Source: Mesaphorura yosii (taxonomy: Eukaryota > Arthropoda > Collembola > Poduromorpha > Tullbergiidae). From it: a DNA stretch of 64,000 bases. The position numbers were made by a program, and so were the translations under genes. The notes beneath the pieces are model-generated. The model was not told where the DNA came from and did not search any database. It worked only from the letters and a program-made list of their open reading frames with translations. The stretch covers positions 124,001-188,000 of the forward strand of contig WIXG01000115.1 in the NCBI GenBank assembly GCA_009869945.1, written 5' to 3'. Of the stretch, positions 5,477 to 59,331 are shown in pieces; the stretch's first letter is position 1, and each line of letters begins with the position of its first letter.

Positions 5477-7933
5477 TTAGCATGAGGGAATGAAGTTTGA
5501 GTGGTCTAACCTCAGAATGCCTGCAGGAAACGAGCGATGATTGTCTTGCTGTCCTTGACCCTGTTGGTTATGGTTCTGATTATGTGCAGAAGCCGAGGAT
5601 TTCAAATGCGGGAGGAGGAGTCCATGATGGTGCGAATGTGACGAGGACAAGTATGGGCTATTGTTGTGATGCGAGTTGCTGTTGTAATTGCTGCTTCCAC
5701 TTCCAGCCGGACCCGAAGGATGTGTGATCGGTGTGCTCATAAAATTACCCCCAGCACTGTTACTGTTGTATGGCTGCGAAAATTGGCGCCCGGAGAGTAA
5801 ATGTCTTTTGGGGAACATTTGGTGGCTTGGCAGCTCGCCGTAGTCAAACGAAGACTGCTGCTGGCCGCCGTGGCCACCGCCGCCATGACCGTGGCCATGA
5901 TGCGATGAATTATTGTATCGTCCTTGCCTCTCATTACCAAAGAGCAGTCCACCTCCGCCGCCACTGAAACGATTGCTATTACTGTATTTCTTGCTAATCA
6001 TCATTAGTCGACTATTGTTACTGTTATGATTGGATGACGAGGAGTGGGAACTGCTGTGATGATGGTTCAGCCATTCAGCACCAGTTTCAAGATCAGTGGT
6101 TCCGTACGGAGACTCGCAGCCGGGGATGAGCCCGCGGTATTTTTTGTTCTCCTGCAGTTTTTGGTGTTGGGAATTTGGGTGGCGATGTAGGCTGATCGGG
6201 GATGCGGCCGCGGCCAAGCTGGTTGACCCCAGCGCGGCGAGCCCACGATGCGACGACGACTGATGGCCTCCGCCACGTGAAGGTGACGGCACCGCCAAGT
6301 AATTGTTAAAAATTTGCCCGCCTCCGCCACCGGTGCCTGTGGAGCTCAGTTGAAACGAATTGTCTTCCACCGCGTACTTTTGCCGTACAAGCCTTTCTCT
6401 TCTGTTGCTCATGCCGTTGCTCTGCTTTCTGCTGCTCGGATGATGGTGGCTGCTGCTTCCATCGCTGTTGCTATTACTGTTGTTATTAGGATTTCCATTC
6501 CCACCACCATTCCGTTTGCTGTACGAGCTGTACGAATGTGCAGGAGATGAAATGTTGTACGTCAAGTTAGGGTCCATTAAACTTTCATTGCGAAAAATCG
6601 AAACAATTCCTTGCTGCTGCTGCTGGGAGCCCGTCTGGCGTGAAGTGCTCGTCCCGCTTCCATTGCCATTCCCACCGCCCATGTTTTTGGAACTTTGATT
6701 GGAATGATTCGAGTTGCTGCCAGGATCGCCGTCAAAGCTGAGACTTTCTCTGCCGCTGTCAACCCACGAAGATCTCGAAGGTGGTCCGCCGCCACCGCCT
6801 CCGTTGCCATTTCCACTGCCGCTTCCGCCGCTGCTCAAGAAATCTGTAACGTTAAGAAAATCTCCGGCCGTAACATGCTGATGCGCCGACGAAGAAGAAG
6901 ATTGTCTGATGGGCGTGAGCTGCTGGAGCTGCTGTGCAAATTGCTGGTTGAATTGCTGGCGATTTACATTTGTACTATTCGTTTCGCCAAAGTAGGAACC
7001 GCTTGGATGAAGTATTAAATGCTCAGCGGACGAGTGGAGTGGATGCTGCATAAAAAGCCCACCGCTGCTGCTAACTAATGATGATGAGGGTTCAAATCCG
7101 ACGCTATGGGTTCTAGGAACATTTTCATAAAGTCTTGTTTCACGGGTTGCGAGCTGTGATGAGACTGAGAAAGGTGGCAAGTGGTGGAGCGGGAGATGGC
7201 GAGGTGGTTCGTGGTGCGTGTGCGGAAGATGAAGCCTGTCGTCAGCATCGTCGTCTTCTAATGGGTACTCTGCGTCGTGCAGCTGCTGTGTGTAAGAATC
7301 CATATCTCTAGCATAACCAAACTTACGCCTTAATTGACTCAAATCTGGACTATCGTCCAGCGCCGGGCTTGATGAGTCAAACGGGGAGCTCTGAATGACA
7401 TCATCTTCGACTGTCCATGTGGACATGTCTTTGTACTCGACTCGACTGCTCGGTCTGACGTCACTCCCACTGCCACTATCTTCATTGTCTTCGAGCACTG
7501 ACAAAATAGCCTTAGCCTTACTCTTATCAGTGTTTCTACCAGCTTTGCCTGCGTCCTTTGTCTTTAGCTCTGGCCGCACTTTGCCGTCTCCTTTCGATTT
7601 CGATTCATCTTCTTCCTCCTCACTGTCATTGTCGTCATGATTGTCCGATTCAATTGTCTCCTTTGCTTTCTGATCGATTGTCTTCTTGTTCTGACTTTCT
7701 TCGGCCTTCTGATCACTTGACTTCCCACTCAACTTTTTACTGTCACCATATTTTTCAATGTCACTGTTCTTGTAATAGTATGCAATGCTCTCCTTTGAGT
7801 CATCTTTCAAATCCAACCCTTGCCCCACTCCAATAATCAGTTCACTCCGCTCACTTTTCCTGGCACTGCCACTAGCATTAGCACTGCTGCTACATTCCTT
7901 TTCGAGATTGTCCATGGAGCCTTTCTTCTCCAT
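5477..7933 (-). CDS. Large low-complexity, probably disordered protein (818 aa), function unknown
   Basis: A single 2.46-kb open frame starts at an ATG and ends in TAA, far longer than chance allows. Residues about 45-145 are rich in Lys, Glu and Asp. The rest is dominated by Ser, Asn, Gly, His and Gln runs. Several non-repetitive islands look conserved: around residues 165-228 (STWTVEDDVIQSSPFD, LRRKFGYARDMDSY), 262-282 (TRLYENVPRTHSVGF) and about 597-625 (KYRGLIPGCESPYGTT). There is no signal peptide or membrane segment, so it is probably intracellular. A weak donor (CTGAG/GTTAGA, near 5505) lies just before the stop, so the true C-terminus may sit in a further exon to the left. I do not recognise the family. 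A scaffold or regulatory role would be a guess. Confidence 0.7.
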   Translation of the reverse strand: MEKKGSMDNLEKECSSSANASGSARKSERSELIIGVGQGLDLKDDSKESIAYYYKNSDIEKYGDSKKLSGKSSDQKAEESQNKKTIDQKAKETIESDNHDDNDSEEEEDESKSKGDGKVRPELKTKDAGKAGRNTDKSKAKAILSVLEDNEDSGSGSDVRPSSRVEYKDMSTWTVEDDVIQSSPFDSSSPALDDSPDLSQLRRKFGYARDMDSYTQQLHDAEYPLEDDDADDRLHLPHTHHEPPRHLPLHHLPPFSVSSQLATRETRLYENVPRTHSVGFEPSSSLVSSSGGLFMQHPLHSSAEHLILHPSGSYFGETNSTNVNRQQFNQQFAQQLQQLTPIRQSSSSSAHQHVTAGDFLNVTDFLSSGGSGSGNGNGGGGGGPPSRSSWVDSGRESLSFDGDPGSNSNHSNQSSKNMGGGNGNGSGTSTSRQTGSQQQQQGIVSIFRNESLMDPNLTYNISSPAHSYSSYSKRNGGGNGNPNNNSNSNSDGSSSHHHPSSRKQSNGMSNRRERLVRQKYAVEDNSFQLSSTGTGGGGGQIFNNYLAVPSPSRGGGHQSSSHRGLAALGSTSLAAAASPISLHRHPNSQHQKLQENKKYRGLIPGCESPYGTTDLETGAEWLNHHHSSSHSSSSNHNSNNSRLMMISKKYSNSNRFSGGGGGLLFGNERQGRYNNSSHHGHGHGGGGHGGQQQSSFDYGELPSHQMFPKRHLLSGRQFSQPYNSNSAGGNFMSTPITHPSGPAGSGSSNYNSNSHHNNSPYLSSSHSHHHGLLLPHLKSSASAHNQNHNQQGQGQQDNHRSFPAGILRLDHSNFIPSC

Positions 7934-43069: not shown

Positions 43070-45073
43070 CTACTCAGCACCCTGAAATGGAAGAATGACT
43101 TAGAATAGAATTTCTATTAGACTCGGGAGCATATCGTACCTTGTTGAGCCCGCCGGCTTGGCTGCTCATCGACGCCTCAGCCATTTTCGGTTCAAAGAAA
43201 CGCTGTGGTTGAAACTGCATGCTGACTGGCTCGGGCTGATCTTGAAACTGGCCCATATCTGCCTCCGCACTTCGTTTGCCAAATCTTAGCCTTAGAGTAT
43301 TCGACCGCTGGGATTTCCTCATCATCTGATGGTTGGGGTTTGTCCGGTACATGTACGCACGGGGAACCATCGGTGCTGTTAGACCGCCTTGTCGTTCTAA
43401 TTCTGCTAGAATTTCTCGCATGCCTGCGGAGAAAAAGGACAAGGGAATGTGTTACTCGGTTTTATCATGAGCCTATGAAGCCAATTCGCAGTATCCGATT
43501 TTAATTTTACAACAAGAAGGCGACATATTTCTAATTATCTTAGTGCTTAAAGCTTGACGAGCCTCAGCTTTGGGTCAATGGTATTAATTTTCGTAAGTGC
43601 ATTGCGAGGTGTATATTTTGACACGATGGCGATGATGGCTGCATTCGAGTAAATTCTTTCTCAGATGAAAGGTTCAGAAGTCATAATCTCATGATGCTGA
43701 TGGAGAACTGGAACGACAAAGAAGTCAAAGACAGCGAATTTCGTAAAGAAGAAAAGAAAACGAGGAAGCAGAAAAATAATTACGAAGAAAGTAAAAAATG
43801 ACAGGTTATGCTTGACAGACATTTTAATGCATGGTGCATGTAATTTTGACATTAAGACAAGTGCCAACGAAGTGAAACGCAAAAGGCACTGACAACGTCA
43901 ACGAATCTATTATCTGAACGATCTAAATGACAAATTAAAAATTCAAAGTTGTGGCCGCATATCCTACGTGATCCCATTTCATTATGTTAATGAGGTAGTC
44001 GGGTTTAAAGCGATATTTCACTGTGCGCGTGTGCTACGAGCCGCTGAAACGCGATACTCACTTTTCACTAATATATTATTGAATTTCGTCAGAGGCGGCC
44101 GTAAACGTTGCGGTGCGACACACCCTTTGATCGATGACGACAATACTTGTCAAATCTAATCTCGATCCGTCTTAAACAAAGACAAAACGCTCTTCCTTTC
44201 TGCTGTTTTCTGATGGTCGTCGTAGTATGCTTCCTAAATGCCAAGCGACGTGGGTGTCTTGTGACTAGTACAAAATCGGTCGAACAAACTTAAATTGGGT
44301 GCAATTACAACTATACAATGCGATAATTGTATGTTGTAATTTCAATTTCCAATGCAGTGCATGCCAATTTACATCTTAACGGTACCGTCTCTTTGCTCGA
44401 AACTGCACATTACGTCAATTCAGCACAGGAATTGCTGTCGTCGTTTCCAGAAAACTGTGCGACAAGTCTATTAAGGTTAAGGAATATTGACCTACACGTG
44501 GAAATGCCTTGCGAAATGCGAAATACGTTGACCATACTTTACTTTCTTTGCTCTGCTCTATTTTGCTTAGTTGAACTTAGCATGTTGTGCCCGGTTTTCC
44601 TGTGTACTTTTCTATTTATAATTAAGATTGAACTAGATTGAGTTTACATTTTGAAATAATGCAAGCGAAAGCGTCAACTGCGATGTTTACTCGTTCGCTA
44701 CTCGCTTTCTTATTTTTTGTCGTCATTCGACGATACTGAGACTCCTTTTTCCATGTATCATATTAGAAATTGTTTATGCAACTTGCAATTACGTCCACTT
44801 AGCCTGGGGGAATTTGAGACGTATGCGATGCAATGCATCAATATTTCCATATACGCTTTGCGCTGAGCGAATAGAGAAAGTTTCGGGAAAAGCCTTCGCC
44901 TTAGCCTGAACTCGACCCGTAACTATAATTTTAGATGCAAATGAAAGCTGACCTTGGTCATGTTGCTCGTAATCTTCTGGCACCGGGTAGGCGACGGTGA
45001 GCTGACAGACAACCAAAATTACGCACGAAAAGCACACAATTGCCTGCACTGACAAAGATGATTTCCACTCCAT
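43070..45073 (-). CDS. sNPF: Short neuropeptide F (sNPF) precursor (138 aa)
   Basis: Exons 44953-45073, 43140-43423 and 43070-43081 join in phase to 138 residues. Exon 1 holds a signal peptide (hydrophobic IVCFSCVILVVCQLTVA, likely cut before YPVPED). Exon 2 carries one amidated peptide: after the dibasic site R76-K77 comes SQRSNTLRLRF followed by GKR, so the predicted product is SQRSNTLRLRF-amide. The RLRF-amide end defines arthropod sNPF, which acts on a G-protein-coupled receptor and is linked to feeding and growth in insects. Only one copy is present, as in crustacean precursors and unlike Drosophila with several. The first donor (GTCAGC) is not consensus but gives the right phase (Q-G-M-R). 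The last exon encodes only GAE and the stop. Confidence 0.9.
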
Positions 45074-51000: not shown

Positions 51001-51462
51001 ATGCGCCGTCACCAAACAGCTACACGCGTCAGCATTCAGTAAAGGCATTACAGCTACGCTGTATATTATAATTGAAGTCGTTCAGGCTTTCAGGGCATGT
51101 GATTATGAACCCTGCTTAAATATTCGTAATTTCGAATTCCGACCTCAATTAAACGAATGCCCTGCTCCGCAGTGAATTATAAAATGTGAAACCAATTGCA
51201 CTTTGTAAATAAATAATGCAAAGTAGTTGAATTGATAGAATTCGCTTCGTAAACAGCAAAATGCAGAGCGGGGCAACCAAATACGGCTGACACGGAGAGA
51301 ATGAATTCTCAAAACTGTACGCAACACAGTTGGGAGTACGAGCAGAAGTGCAGGAGCAAGATAGCAACAAAGAGGAAGGAAGCGACCTTGCTGTGGCTTC
51401 TTTCAGAGCTTTCTCTCTTTGTATTGACGTATTTCGCCGGTAATCTCCAAACGAACGCCGAA
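45074..51462. other. 6.4-kb gene-poor stretch
   Basis: No convincing coding exon, RNA gene or repeat array. ORFs at 45108-45509 (minus), 45138-45620 (plus) and 47812-48042 (plus) have no motif or splice partner. The left end is the promoter region of the sNPF gene and the right end that of malectin. Long flanking non-coding DNA is common beside neuropeptide genes, so enhancers are plausible here but not shown. Confidence 0.45.
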
Positions 51463-52495
51463 ATGCGGCTCCTTGCCATCCTCCTTTTCCAGTTTCTGCA
51501 GGCTACCTCCACCCGTCCCCCAAACGTCATCTTCGCAGTGAACTGTGGAGGTGACGCACACACCGACCGTCATGGAATCCGTTATACTAAAGACCCGCTC
51601 AAGATCGGAATCAGCTCCGACTACGGTAAACAGCTGCAGCGGATAGGACGCGTAGCGCCGGGGGATGAAATCCTATACCAGACGGAGCGGTACCACCACA
51701 CCAGCTTCGGGTATGATATCCCAGTCGACCAGGATGGAGAGTACGTCATGGTACTCAAGTTTTGTGAAGTCTACTTCCAGGCCGATAACATGAAGGTAAA
51801 ACTGTCAATAAACCAATACACTTGTCAAGTTACCGATGTCACATTGAGTTGTTCAATCTACGGTGTATTGTTCTCTTGCAGGTTTTCGACGTTGTCCTAA
51901 ATGGCGACCATACGATCGTATCGGACCTGGACATCCATGACCGTGTCGGGCATGGGGTAGCCTACGACGAAATTGTGCCCTTTGAAGTTCGACGTACGAC
52001 TCTAATTTACAATGGACAGGAGTCGGAGATTCGCGGTGGCAAGATTAGAGTCGAATTTATCAAGGTACACCACAGACCACAACACCAATTGTCTTAAGAT
52101 TAGATGCAAGCTTGAAATTAATTCAGTTCTACTTCTGTTGTGTTAAAAGGGATATCGGGACAACCCAAAGATAAATGCGATCTATGTCATCAAAGGAGGT
52201 GTCGATGGTACGCTTAGTTGCTTCAATCTTCAGTCTTAAATTGGACCATGCTTTAAGAGGTTCATTCTTGATTTCAGAAATTCCAGATCTTGAACCAATC
52301 CAAGTCCCGACTCCACCTCCAACAACAACCTATCCACCTAGTCAAGCGGAGGACGAGCATCCTTCAAGAGCTCGAACATCAGGACCCCGAGCCGTGGATC
52401 CGTATGAAGATGCGAGTCTCTCCCAAACGATCTTCCCCGTCTTCTTGGCCATCGGGGCATTCATTCCTATCCTGTTTTGTCTTTGCCGACTCTGA
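51463..52495 (+). CDS. Malectin, ER carbohydrate-binding protein (263 aa)
   Basis: Malectin binds Glc2-high-mannose N-glycans in the ER and works with ribophorin I in quality control. Exons 51463-51795, 51882-52064, 52150-52207 and 52278-52495 join in phase to 263 residues (human 292). The start ATG precedes a signal peptide (MRLLAILLFQFLQATSTRP). The lectin domain contains VIFAVNCGGDAHTD, YGKQLQRIG, YHHTSFGYDIPV, the core motif YVMVLKFCEVYF, VFDVVLNGDHTI and FEVRRTTLIYNGQE. A Pro/Thr-rich linker follows, then one C-terminal membrane segment (TIFPVFLAIGAFIPILFCLC). An upstream in-frame ATG (51301) would add 54 residues but would bury the signal peptide, so it was not chosen. Confidence 0.93.
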
Positions 52496-53616: not shown

Positions 53617-55566
53617 ATGGAACCGCGTACGCCAGGATACAGAAGGAAGACGACCAACCAAGTAAGGTCAAACTTGGAGACAAGAGCTAGAAGTGTTCGC
53701 GAACTCATCCAATCTCTTCACGGTGACTTGGGCTCGGATTGCTGGAGCTGGATTGCTGGGCCCAAAATGCTGCTCTCATCGCTGCACTCGTCAGTCAAGC
53801 AAATTTTGTCATATAAGCTAGAAAAAATTCTCGTCTTGAGCTTGACGGCAGTTTTGCTCGCAATTCTTCCTTTCGTCTTATTCTTGATCGCCTGCATGTT
53901 CGTCATTCGTCATGCTGTATCAATTCTTGCAAAGCACTTTCGACCGGATTTGGGAACAATTATTCCCACACGAAGTGCTGGTTTCGCTACCGATTTGGTG
54001 TACAACAAAATTCCCAAATACTCGGTCGTCGTGCCTCTATACGTGAAAGGGCATTTGGGCGTCGGTGATCTCCGCGCACGACTGAGAGAAGTGCTTGACA
54101 AGAAGGACGCAATCAAGGAGCCACGTGCCGGTACAAGTACAAACCCTGAAGATCTGGACACGATATCAGCTCTGAGATATCCGGAACTGAAGCAATTTGT
54201 ATACTCGTGGTTTGGAATCCTGTTTTGGAGGTGGGAACAAAATTTCAAGATTGAAGACCATGTAAACCTTCTCAACGACCGAAGATACGTCGCCAATTCT
54301 GGAACCACGTTAAACGAAGAAGATCTGGCAAGAATCGGGCAAGATTTTACGACGAAGCCTTACAGAAAAGGACGCAGCCACTGGGAAATATTGTTACAGC
54401 ATCATACGTGTACAGTCACTGGCGAGCCACGCACATTGGTCATTTTCCGTATTCATCACGCTCTCGGCGACGGATTCTCGATACTCAAGTTCTGCTTGGG
54501 AGATTTGTCACAACAGAGCAATCTGCAAGTGCAGGAGACCAAGACACGCTACCCAGAAGTGGTACCATGGCCGTCCGAGCGTGAGTCCGCCGAAGGATTC
54601 CTCAGAACCTTCCAGCGCGAGCTGACGGGAATAAAAATTTACAAGATGGCAACCTTCACAATTATGGCCATGTACGATTTCGCCAGCGCAGTTATAAACA
54701 CATGGGATTTCAATTCTTGGAAACTGCCAGAGAGGAAACTGAGGCACAGAATGAAGCTGGGCGTGACAGAACCGATACCATTGACGAACCTGAAGAGGAT
54801 AAAGAATCAGAACCAAATTGCACTCACATCGTTGTTGCTGGCTGCATATGCTGGAGCCTTGAGAAATTATATGGAGGAGAGAAATCGGAGCAGACACTCC
54901 CAAATACCAATTCCAGATCATGTTCATTGTATGGTCACTCTGCCATTTCCTGGACACTCTGGCAGATTAACAAATCACATGTAAGGATTCATTATGCAGA
55001 CCCGTAGATCTTGATTACTTAACTACGAATATTTCTAGGACCGGAACCTTTGTCAAGCTTCCCCTGAATCTCCAGTCGTCGCCAAGAGCTCGACTACTAG
55101 CCATCAGCCGTGAATTAGAAGCAGCGAAAAGAAGCACATTCCCGACCCTGATATTTTACGGAATCCAAGTCAGTGGGATAGCGCCAGCACCGATTACATG
55201 GCTTTACTTTGGGAATATTGCACATTCTTGCGCACTGAGTAATTTTCCTGGCCCCGAACATCCCGTAAACTTTGTTGGACATGAAATTCTGGATGGAAGC
55301 TTCACTGCTCGTGTTGGAAATATGCGTAAGTTCAATGGTCATTTTCCATTTTCCATCTTCGACTTCACTATGATTATTATATCAGATTCTTCTGTGCTTT
55401 GATTTCAGCTTTTGTTTTCACTGCGTTGAGCTACAATGGAAATATTCGCCTGGCATTCGGACTAGATGAAGCAATTACCGTAGGCGGGAATGATGGAGAG
55501 TTGGGGAGCAAAATGATGCAAGAGTTGCAGTCATTAGATAAGAATCTCGAAATTGGTAGTCAATAA
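53617..55566 (+). CDS. WS/DGAT-type O-acyltransferase (wax ester synthase-like, 602 aa)
   Basis: This family moves an acyl group from acyl-CoA to a long-chain alcohol or diacylglycerol, making wax esters or triacylglycerol. Exons 53617-54980, 55039-55325 and 55409-55566 join in phase to 602 residues. The catalytic HHxxxDG motif is intact as HHALGDG at residues 280-286. The N-terminal half has WEQNFKIEDHVNL and HWEILLQHH, as in the condensation-like fold. The C-terminal DUF1298 (WSD1) part has NFPGPEHPVNFVGHEI and ALSYNGNIRLAFGLDEAIT. A strong membrane segment (residues 71-97) precedes the enzyme, so it is probably ER-anchored. A cuticular wax or storage-lipid role is inference. The start ATG has a good context (ACAATGG). 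Poly(A) signals overlap and follow the stop. Confidence 0.92.
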
Positions 55567-57643: not shown

Positions 57644-58114
57644 ATACTCGCCCATTCTTCCTTCACAATTGCGTCATAGTCATTCCTCTCTTAATCATCG
57701 CACCTGAGAGCTGAGTGTCCATTATGAATCAGAGAATAGGACCTATTCCGAGATAGCTTAGCTTATGATTGCGCAATGGACGCTTTGAAACACTGTGCAG
57801 GCAAAAGGCAGAGTAAATTAAGTGTTTTAAACCATGGCACGATGACTCACACTGCAATATAAAGACTCACAATTCACAAATAGCAACCGAACAATTTTTG
57901 TTGTGCGATTTTTTGCTGAGCCATCACAGCAAGTTCCACTTGTATCGATCGCAAGTCAATGATGCAGGATTTGACGAAGGTCGCTGCGGAATGAAGTATT
58001 TATTTTCACGGCCAGACTCAAATCTGACTCCATATGCGCTTCACGACTTAAAGAAAGGTGATCGAGAGTGATATTTTGTCATTTGTATTTCTAAAATCTG
58101 CCTCACGCTGAAAA
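57644..58114. other. Short intergenic region upstream of the RING gene
   Basis: Nothing coding is seen. It should hold the promoter of the RING gene, but no clear TATA/initiator pair was found. Confidence 0.4.
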
Positions 58115-58864
58115 ATGGCATCGAACGGTCAGCAGCAAGAAAACTTCTCTGGCAATCTGAAACCACTGACACTCGAGAGTCACCGGAATTACAAGATTAA
58201 CAACAACTGCAGCGAGGTCAAGGTTGACAGTAATTGTACGGTGAGCTGCGATAATAATTGCGGCAAGATTGAGCTGGGCCCCAACACAGTAGTGACGAGC
58301 TCGAACAACAACTGTGGACACATTGTCATCGGAGAGAATTCTACTCTCACGAAAGCCAAGCGGAACTGTGGCAGCATAACAATCGGAGCGAACTCCATCG
58401 TAAAAAACGTGAACGGCAACTTTGGGAAGATTGACATAGGAGGCCAGTCAGTCGTGCCGGAAATAATCGGGAACTTTGGCCAGATCAAAGTAGGGCCAAA
58501 CTGTGACGCGGCGACAAGTCGGAGTAAGACCAATTTTGGACAAATTATGATCGCTGAAGGGGTCGTCGTTCCCTCTGCTACGTCAGTCCAATCGCCGACA
58601 GCACCTGCTCCTGAGGACGGCTTTCAGTTTGGAAAAGGCAATCAAAATGTAAATGGAGTACCAGCTACAGTTGCAACCGGTGATGAGGAGTATCCAGATC
58701 TTGGGACATTCAGTGGAAAGTCAACTTGCTCAATCTGCATGGAGAGGGGTCGCAATATCGCCTTTCTTTGCGGTCACACTTGCTGCTCGACCTGTGCTGA
58801 GGGCATGGTCCTGTGTCACATGTGCAGAGTTCCAATTGAACGCAAAATCAGACTCTACGATTAA
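58115..58864 (+). CDS. Intronless RING-finger protein with 18-residue solenoid-like repeats (249 aa)
   Basis: The C-terminal RING is complete C3HC4: C205, C208, C219, H221, C224, C227, C234 and C237, in the spacing used by MIB and IAP proteins, and ends IERKIRLYD. Such RINGs recruit E2 enzymes and act as ubiquitin ligases. The N-terminal part (residues about 31-150) is a tandem repeat with the core N-[CF]-G-x-[IV]-x-[IV]-G, at residues 48, 66, 84, 102 and 120, exactly 18 apart, then 140. A less exact unit starts at 31. Short beta strands on this period point to a beta-solenoid, with rungs like those of bactofilins. A flexible linker (about 153-200) joins the halves. It has no intron, unlike most neighbours. 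Ligase activity is inferred from the RING. The repeat's role is unknown; self-assembly or ligand binding is possible. Confidence 0.88.
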   Translation: MASNGQQQENFSGNLKPLTLESHRNYKINNNCSEVKVDSNCTVSCDNNCGKIELGPNTVVTSSNNNCGHIVIGENSTLTKAKRNCGSITIGANSIVKNVNGNFGKIDIGGQSVVPEIIGNFGQIKVGPNCDAATSRSKTNFGQIMIAEGVVVPSATSVQSPTAPAPEDGFQFGKGNQNVNGVPATVATGDEEYPDLGTFSGKSTCSICMERGRNIAFLCGHTCCSTCAEGMVLCHMCRVPIERKIRLYD

Positions 58865-58953: not shown

Positions 58954-59331
58954 CTAAATATTTTGTAGCACACCTTCGTCTGAAATATAACCGTGATCTT
59001 TCGCCAGTTGCTCCTTTTTCTCGTACAAGAAGTATTGCATGAGTTTGTCCAGTCCGCTGTCTTTCAGTCCGGAGCTGTACCCTCGCAGAAATGCACGGAC
59101 ACACCCATGTGAGCGCTGCTCCTCCTTGGTGACATTCTTCGGTGCATTCTCCGACACCCACCGTTTGTCCGGACGCTCCAGGCCCAGTATTCCAAGTTTC
59201 CTTCCGAATTCGGTGATTTTCCTTCGCTTAGGGCACTCGTAGCCTTCCTGTGCTCCTTGTGCGAGCCAGATAAATGTGAACACAGTAAAAACTAACAGAC
59301 TCAAAGGGGTCGCAATCTTGTGGACCTTCAT
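58954..59331 (-). CDS. Small secreted protein (125 aa), function unknown
   Basis: A single-exon frame from ATG to stop. The signal peptide is clear (MKVHKI, then hydrophobic SLLVFTVFTFIWLAQG, likely cut before AQEGYEC). The mature part is basic and charged, with two cysteines (YECPKRR and HGCVRAF) that could pair, and one N-glycosylation site (NVT). It ends DEGVLQNI. Its stop is 90 bp from the stop of the RING gene, so the two transcripts converge and their 3' ends probably overlap. No family recognised. Confidence 0.7.
   Translation of the reverse strand: MKVHKIATPLSLLVFTVFTFIWLAQGAQEGYECPKRRKITEFGRKLGILGLERPDKRWVSENAPKNVTKEEQRSHGCVRAFLRGYSSGLKDSGLDKLMQYFLYEKKEQLAKDHGYISDEGVLQNI

Follow-up and report, generated by a model that had tools for sequence, protein, structure and literature searches.

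A collembolan reading frame joining a predicted β-solenoid repeat to a C-terminal RING of the MIB/IAP type

A single uninterrupted reading frame of Mesaphorura yosii encodes, in one chain of 249 residues, an N-terminal repeat domain that is likely to fold as a β-solenoid and a C-terminal C3HC4 RING of the type present in the MIB and IAP proteins. With its stop codon, the frame occupies positions 58115–58864 on the plus strand of the window, that is, of the whole stretch of 64,000 nucleotides from contig WIXG01000115.1 that was analysed. We think that there is about an even chance that the protein works as a dimeric single-chain RING E3, in which the solenoid, carried on a flexible tether, recruits a substrate or a partner complex. 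The protein would then be a RING E3 with a solenoid module, and its novelty is judged here from the literature.

The frame is preceded directly by an in-frame TGA at 58109, and its ATG stands in a favourable context (AAAATGG). A previous reading, made from the letters alone and called here the sequence-only reading, had placed the gene at 58205–58864. The uninterrupted character of that frame holds, but its start has to be corrected to 58115, since 58205 is codon 31; the residue numbers given at that time are those of the full 249-residue frame. The GC content at the three codon positions (0.48, 0.45, and 0.55) is broadly as in four other frames of the window. A TATAAA at 57858–57863 (+), 257 nt 5' of the ATG, is a possible promoter element by consensus match only.

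The repeat domain covers residues 31–156 (58205–58582, +) and is delimited by self-identity, rung pattern, and structural model. Seven rungs of the N-[CF]-G type are counted, at residues 31, 48, 66, 84, 102, 120, and 140, with spacings of 17, 18, 18, 18, 18, and 20, which agrees with the at least six tandem units claimed before, the rungs at 31 and 140 being degenerate. In order along the plus strand, the rungs begin with NCSEVKVD (rung 1, 17 residues, 58205–58255), NCGKIELG (rung 2, 58256–58309), NCGHIVIG (rung 3, 58310–58363), NCGSITIG (rung 4, 58364–58417), NFGKIDIG (rung 5, the first of three Phe rungs, 58418–58471), NFGQIKVG (rung 6, 20 residues, 58472–58531), and NFGQIMIA (rung 7, 58532–58582). 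The exact 18-residue spacing of the core sites at 48, 66, 84, 102, and 120 is confirmed. The core proposed for them, N[CF]G.[IV].[IV]G, is followed strictly by the four rungs at 66, 84, 102, and 120, but not by the rung at 48, which has Leu for the second [IV]. Asn is found at rung position 1 in all seven rungs and Gly at position 3 in six of the seven; positions 2, 5, 7, and 13 are hydrophobic throughout, terminal rungs 1 and 7 included, and positions 4, 6, 9, and 14–18 are variable. Position 2 is Cys in rungs 1–4 and Phe in rungs 5–7, as if the solenoid had been made from two blocks. Residues 1–158 contain seven Cys.

When residues 20–155 are compared with themselves at lags of 4 to 40, identity peaks at lag 18 (0.271), with lag 36 coming next (0.240). 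The mean for shuffled sequences at lag 18 is 0.076, and none of 10,000 shuffles reached 0.271 at any of these lags. When the whole protein was shuffled 10,000 times, the strict motif was absent from 9,996 of the resulting sequences and occurred once in each of the other 4. Over the 21 rung pairs, 33% of the residues and 47% of the bases are identical. At matched residues, the codons agree in 44 of 118 cells, where the codon usage of the gene itself predicts 42.8; Met and Trp were left out, and the cells are non-independent, so that the figures serve as a comparison and not as a formal test. Since this agreement is no better than expected, the repeat looks old at the DNA level and was apparently kept by selection on the protein, as for a folded solenoid. 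A loose two-rung DNA pattern has three matches in the window, all of them within this gene.

These results bear directly on the view that we are dealing with a tandem array of recent origin or without meaning, or with a frame that is no gene. Such a view can point to a protein known from one sequence read alone and to the plus strand between 57,700 and 59,600, where there is no AATAAA or ATTAAA and only the variant AATATA is present, at 57856 and, downstream of the gene, at 58984. It is opposed by the codon figures, by Tandem Repeats Finder, which detects no DNA array in the gene, and by the complete RING that follows downstream in frame. We regard it as already largely refuted and extremely improbable.

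The fold of residues 1–158 was predicted with AlphaFold2 run without an alignment, a mode in which the program often fails, and a model of the full-length protein was made as well. The model of residues 1–158 has a mean pLDDT of 75.1, a pTM of 0.70, and 12 strands; no helix is listed for it, and one three-residue helical turn appears in the per-residue string. This almost all-β repeated fold, together with the rung pattern, supports the solenoid-like repeat that had been proposed from the letters. Residues 1–30 (58115–58204, +) form a polar N-terminal stretch with short modelled strands at residues 8–11, 18–20, and 25–28 and mean pLDDT of 52 (residues 1–10), 73 (11–20), and 78 (21–30), and they may correspond to a degenerate rung or a cap. 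In the full-length model, the block means within residues 1–158 reach a pLDDT of up to 86, and residues 142–249 remain below 50, which means that the RING is unfolded there despite its clear sequence match. The Gly/Thr/Pro-rich linker of residues 157–204 (58583–58726, +) is probably flexible, as judged by its composition; the low pLDDT over 142–249 takes in the RING too and is hence weak evidence on this point.

With neither model did Foldseek find a PDB entry at E ≤ 0.001 (best 50 of 89 and best 50 of 96, E to 10), nor did the full-length model give a BFVD match at that threshold (best 50 of 248, E to 10). It is therefore the model together with the rung pattern that assigns the repeat to the solenoid class. 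Among the PDB matches listed, the top TMq was 0.62, for the C-terminal domain of tapirin at E 1.3. The matches listed comprise many β-helices and ice-binding proteins, and also leucine-rich-repeat and other proteins, so that the fold search adds little to the class assignment. The ice-binding proteins raised an antifreeze role, which we rejected because of the RING in the same chain and of a protein start unlike a signal peptide by eye. A period of the pentapeptide type was not found, the best lag among 4–40 being 18 and Pfam giving no match of this type; besides, no β-helix repeat family of Pfam was matched by the whole protein or by the solenoid alone. Weak matches to AVR-Pik_HID (0.05–0.15), eL8 (0.15), three PHROGs (0.07–0.6), and a 36-residue PDB peptide (0.92) were taken as chance.

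The C3HC4 RING lies at residues 205–237 (58727–58825, +). All eight zinc ligands are present with MIB spacing (C205, C208, C219, H221, C224, C227, C234, and C237), and PF13920 is matched in Pfam at 3.7e-7 with 30.3 bits versus a cut-off of 27. The best two PDB sequence matches, which extend over the RING and the tail, are MIB1 RING3 (8v0d, 1.3e-9, with identity at 21 of 44 aligned residues) and BIRC7 (4auq, 1.6e-9), the cIAP and XIAP RINGs being next. The MIB/IAP type recognised by the sequence-only reading is thus well founded, and the protein has the trait of this subgroup, namely a RING near the C-terminus and, after it, a short tail that includes an aromatic residue. Residues 238–249 (58826–58861, +), as aligned with MIB1 RING3 and BIRC7, begin with Arg238 at the 'linchpin' position, and the chain ends in Arg246-Leu-Tyr248-Asp.

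MIB1 RING3 and BIRC7/cIAP1 have in common with the M. yosii protein the RING type, the ligand spacing, and a tail close to the protein end. The Arg-x-aromatic tail of cIAP1 and BIRC7 is that of the M. yosii protein, whereas MIB1 RING3 keeps the tail Tyr but has Leu in the place of Arg246. The difference lies in the rest of the chain, which in M. yosii is the solenoid. Members of the MIB family carry MIB/HERC2 domains, ankyrin repeats, and several RINGs, and an IAP has one BIR domain or more. We found one RING in 249 residues, no MIB or ankyrin families in the Pfam scan (E to 10), and no BIR domain in that scan, which places the protein outside both families.

For the working of such a RING there is a model in cIAP1, in which one RING uses Arg614 and Phe616 to touch the ubiquitin that its partner's E2 carries and the F616H variant is defective; this trans-tail mechanism is common to dimeric RINGs with a tail Phe or Tyr (PMC6349121). 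By analogy, the C-terminal RING of the M. yosii protein would dimerise as in the IAP and MIB RINGs, and the dimer would bind E2~ubiquitin, the E2 being probably of the UbcH5/UBE2D class. The Arg246-x-Tyr248 tail of each partner would then press on the ubiquitin of the opposite partner and so activate its transfer. A helix preceding the RING aids dimerisation of the IAP RINGs (PMC6349121), and the linker of the M. yosii protein shows no evident helix of this kind in its sequence. A dimeric and active RING is, in our opinion, what the ligands and the tail suggest.

In the recruitment reading, the seven-rung solenoid would reach out through the linker of ~48 residues and hold the substrate or the partner complex. 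All rungs keep the Asn of the first turn and the four hydrophobic positions, presumably inward, and the positions that presumably point outward are variable, which would give a surface that is long and rigid but can change its side chains. Since the prokaryote, viral, phage, and plasmid scans returned no solenoid relative, neither a conserved patch nor an orthologue points to the binding face. The same architecture could also serve another purpose, with the solenoid acting chiefly as a rigid spacer or an autoinhibitory arm that controls RING dimerisation, and not as a substrate selector. The length of the linker would let the solenoid fold back, and in cIAP1 the N-terminal part (BIR3-UBA-CARD) keeps the RING inactive (PMC6349121). 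However, there is no sign of a contact between solenoid and RING, the full-length model being poor over the latter, and we consider this use of the solenoid distinctly unlikely.

Bactofilins have a right-handed triangular β-helix and polymerise without a nucleotide. Bactofilin is named as a prominent member of a group of polymer-forming proteins that eukaryotes typically lack (PMC12448750), and its repeats have 16–18 residues, six of them in the M. xanthus bactofilins (PMC4372379). The five rungs spaced by 18 fall within this range, so that the bactofilin-type rung length noticed from the letters is correct. Kinship is another matter. PF04519 was matched in Pfam neither by the whole protein nor by the solenoid alone, no bactofilin model was matched in NCBIfam, and the PDB sequence search matched no solved bactofilin. 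A bactofilin profile was built from nine plasmid segments, taken from 40 listed of 89 records that match an approximate core; six carry the annotation 'polymer-forming cytoskeletal protein', and the other three are unannotated at that place. The solenoid scored 2.7 bits against it and the reversed sequence 0.4, with 67 of 492 scored shuffles (500 made) equalling or beating the solenoid, whereas the nine bactofilins, each compared with a profile built without it, scored 47.2–111.7 bits. Profile comparison with hhalign gave a probability of 0.12 per cent, and N[CF]G occurs in none of the nine segments. The structural match is also weak: the bactofilins 6rib, 6ria, and 2n3d are found by Foldseek with the solenoid model at E 0.85–4.6, TMq 0.16–0.21, and TMt 0.23–0.28, and TMt rises up to 0.38 with the full-length model among the matches listed. 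Bactofilin homology is thus rejected on sequence. We keep bactofilins as an analogy only, as small proteins with flexible tails whose repeat length and stacked hydrophobic positions are like those of the M. yosii protein.

This analogy underlies the main rival to recruitment, which makes the solenoid a self-assembly module. End-to-end stacking of uncapped ends, as in bactofilin filaments, would cluster the RINGs, so that ligase activity climbs sharply as the concentration increases or where a template is present. Both the rung length and the stacked hydrophobic positions are of the bactofilin kind (PMC4372379), the terminal rungs 1 and 7 are hydrophobic at all four core positions, and RING proximity raises activity in TRIM5alpha (PMC9675739). 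Nevertheless, the sequence kinship is missing and the TM scores with the solenoid model are those low values given above; both end rungs are degenerate, moreover, and the polar tails could cap the ends. We think that self-assembly is unlikely. In a bolder form, the lineage would have built a filament- or patch-forming solenoid from its own material and fused it to a trans-tail dimeric RING, so that polymerisation switches the ligase on and the protein is a convergent counterpart of the bactofilins; to this we give a rather slim chance. If the polymer reading were true, the end stacking of solenoids would set the spacing of the RINGs, a eukaryotic parallel to bactofilin scaffolding.

The sequence-only reading also spoke of retroposition or of a transferred repeat domain. 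An uninterrupted frame is what one would expect if the repeat domain or the whole gene had a bacterial or viral source, or if the gene were a retrocopy. Nevertheless, scans of prokaryote, viral, phage, and plasmid collections, of which those based on patterns detect close relatives only, yielded no credible relative. For the solenoid, GTDB contigs gave 43 pattern stretches with none confirmed; the whole protein had no relative in IMG/VR and none in plasmids, and its one phage match (PQ006093.1, 39.5% over 43 residues, E 0.8) lacks significance. In the prokaryotic genome contigs, the two-rung DNA pattern in its strict form is found at one locus (L011), which we dismissed as low complexity; the match lies in a 153-residue minus-strand frame that is built of 9-residue repeats and overlapped by other open frames. 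A looser two-rung pattern marks nine loci in viral contigs, and Cys or Phe stands at position 2 of the matched rungs in none of the nine. At one of them (L002), a tandem repeat of 18 residues makes up a 51-codon frame, the loose motif occurs more than twice only in L004 (five times), and five of the nine (L005, L006, and L008–L010) have one near-identical stretch in common. The frames of these five measure 1,084–2,971 codons in the stretches seen, and what they share reads NGGGVIMGAGR.NAVPNLN.GNIFIG.

The signs of retroposition are likewise missing at the locus. There is no A-rich tail after the stop, the longest run of A being 5 in 400 nt, and no direct repeat of at least 12 nt that spares the gene, the sole one around it having one copy inside the RING region. 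The GC content by codon position, as said, resembles that of the neighbouring frames, and the adjoining gene likewise reads as one exon. On these signs and on the prokaryote, viral, phage, and plasmid collections scanned, we hold both retroposition and transfer to be very unlikely. As to the contrast once drawn between an intronless gene and intron-rich neighbours, it is true in part: two MCM6/MCM domain pieces stand in separate frames, which suggests introns there, but the adjoining gene on the minus strand is one uninterrupted frame.

Among animal proteins, KCTD9 partners cullin-3. It carries a pentapeptide β-solenoid (PMC8699099, PMC13361646), and in it a solenoid is joined to a ubiquitin-ligase adaptor domain; this solenoid may act as a receptor. 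FBXO11 is an animal ubiquitin-ligase component with parallel β-helices, and its CASH domains, right-handed β-helices, are described as important for substrate recognition (PMC8825234). In the literature surveyed, these are the nearest animal cases, and both differ from the M. yosii protein in having no RING in the same chain: FBXO11 is an F-box protein of a multi-subunit SCF, and KCTD9 has BTB and ubiquitin-like domains and a solenoid repeat of the pentapeptide type. No RING joined to such a solenoid in one chain appears in the titles and abstract starts of the literature matches listed, a search with most subscription journals outside it that is no proof of absence.

β-Helix and solenoid modules in animal ubiquitin-ligase components have so far come from multi-subunit complexes, as in FBXO11 and KCTD9. 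A compact single chain of ~250 residues would offer a simple system for asking whether such a rigid surface of repeats serves to select substrates or to bring RINGs together. The convergence on 18-residue rungs, with no detectable bactofilin ancestry, would be instructive as well. Should this be only the orphan ligase of one lineage, its importance would be smaller.

The surroundings of the gene are animal-like by their MCM6, malectin, thioredoxin-domain, and PHD frames. The convergent neighbour is an uninterrupted frame of 125 residues at 58954–59331 (−), with a stop just 5' of its ATG; ~90 bases lie between its own stop and the point where the RING gene ends, its start looks like a signal peptide by eye, and it has no Pfam match at 0.01. 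Other frames likewise have no Pfam match at 0.01. One of 455 residues at 53617–54984 (+) contains HHALGDG, which we take to resemble the wax ester synthase/DGAT motif. The frame at 43074–43442 (−), with RLRFGKR, is presumably an exon of a short neuropeptide F precursor, and a single frame of 818 residues at 5477–7933 (−), rich in Ser, His, Gly, and Asn, is probably an exon of a largely disordered protein. The malectin-domain exon is situated at 51301–51900 (+), with a match at 1.8e-24.
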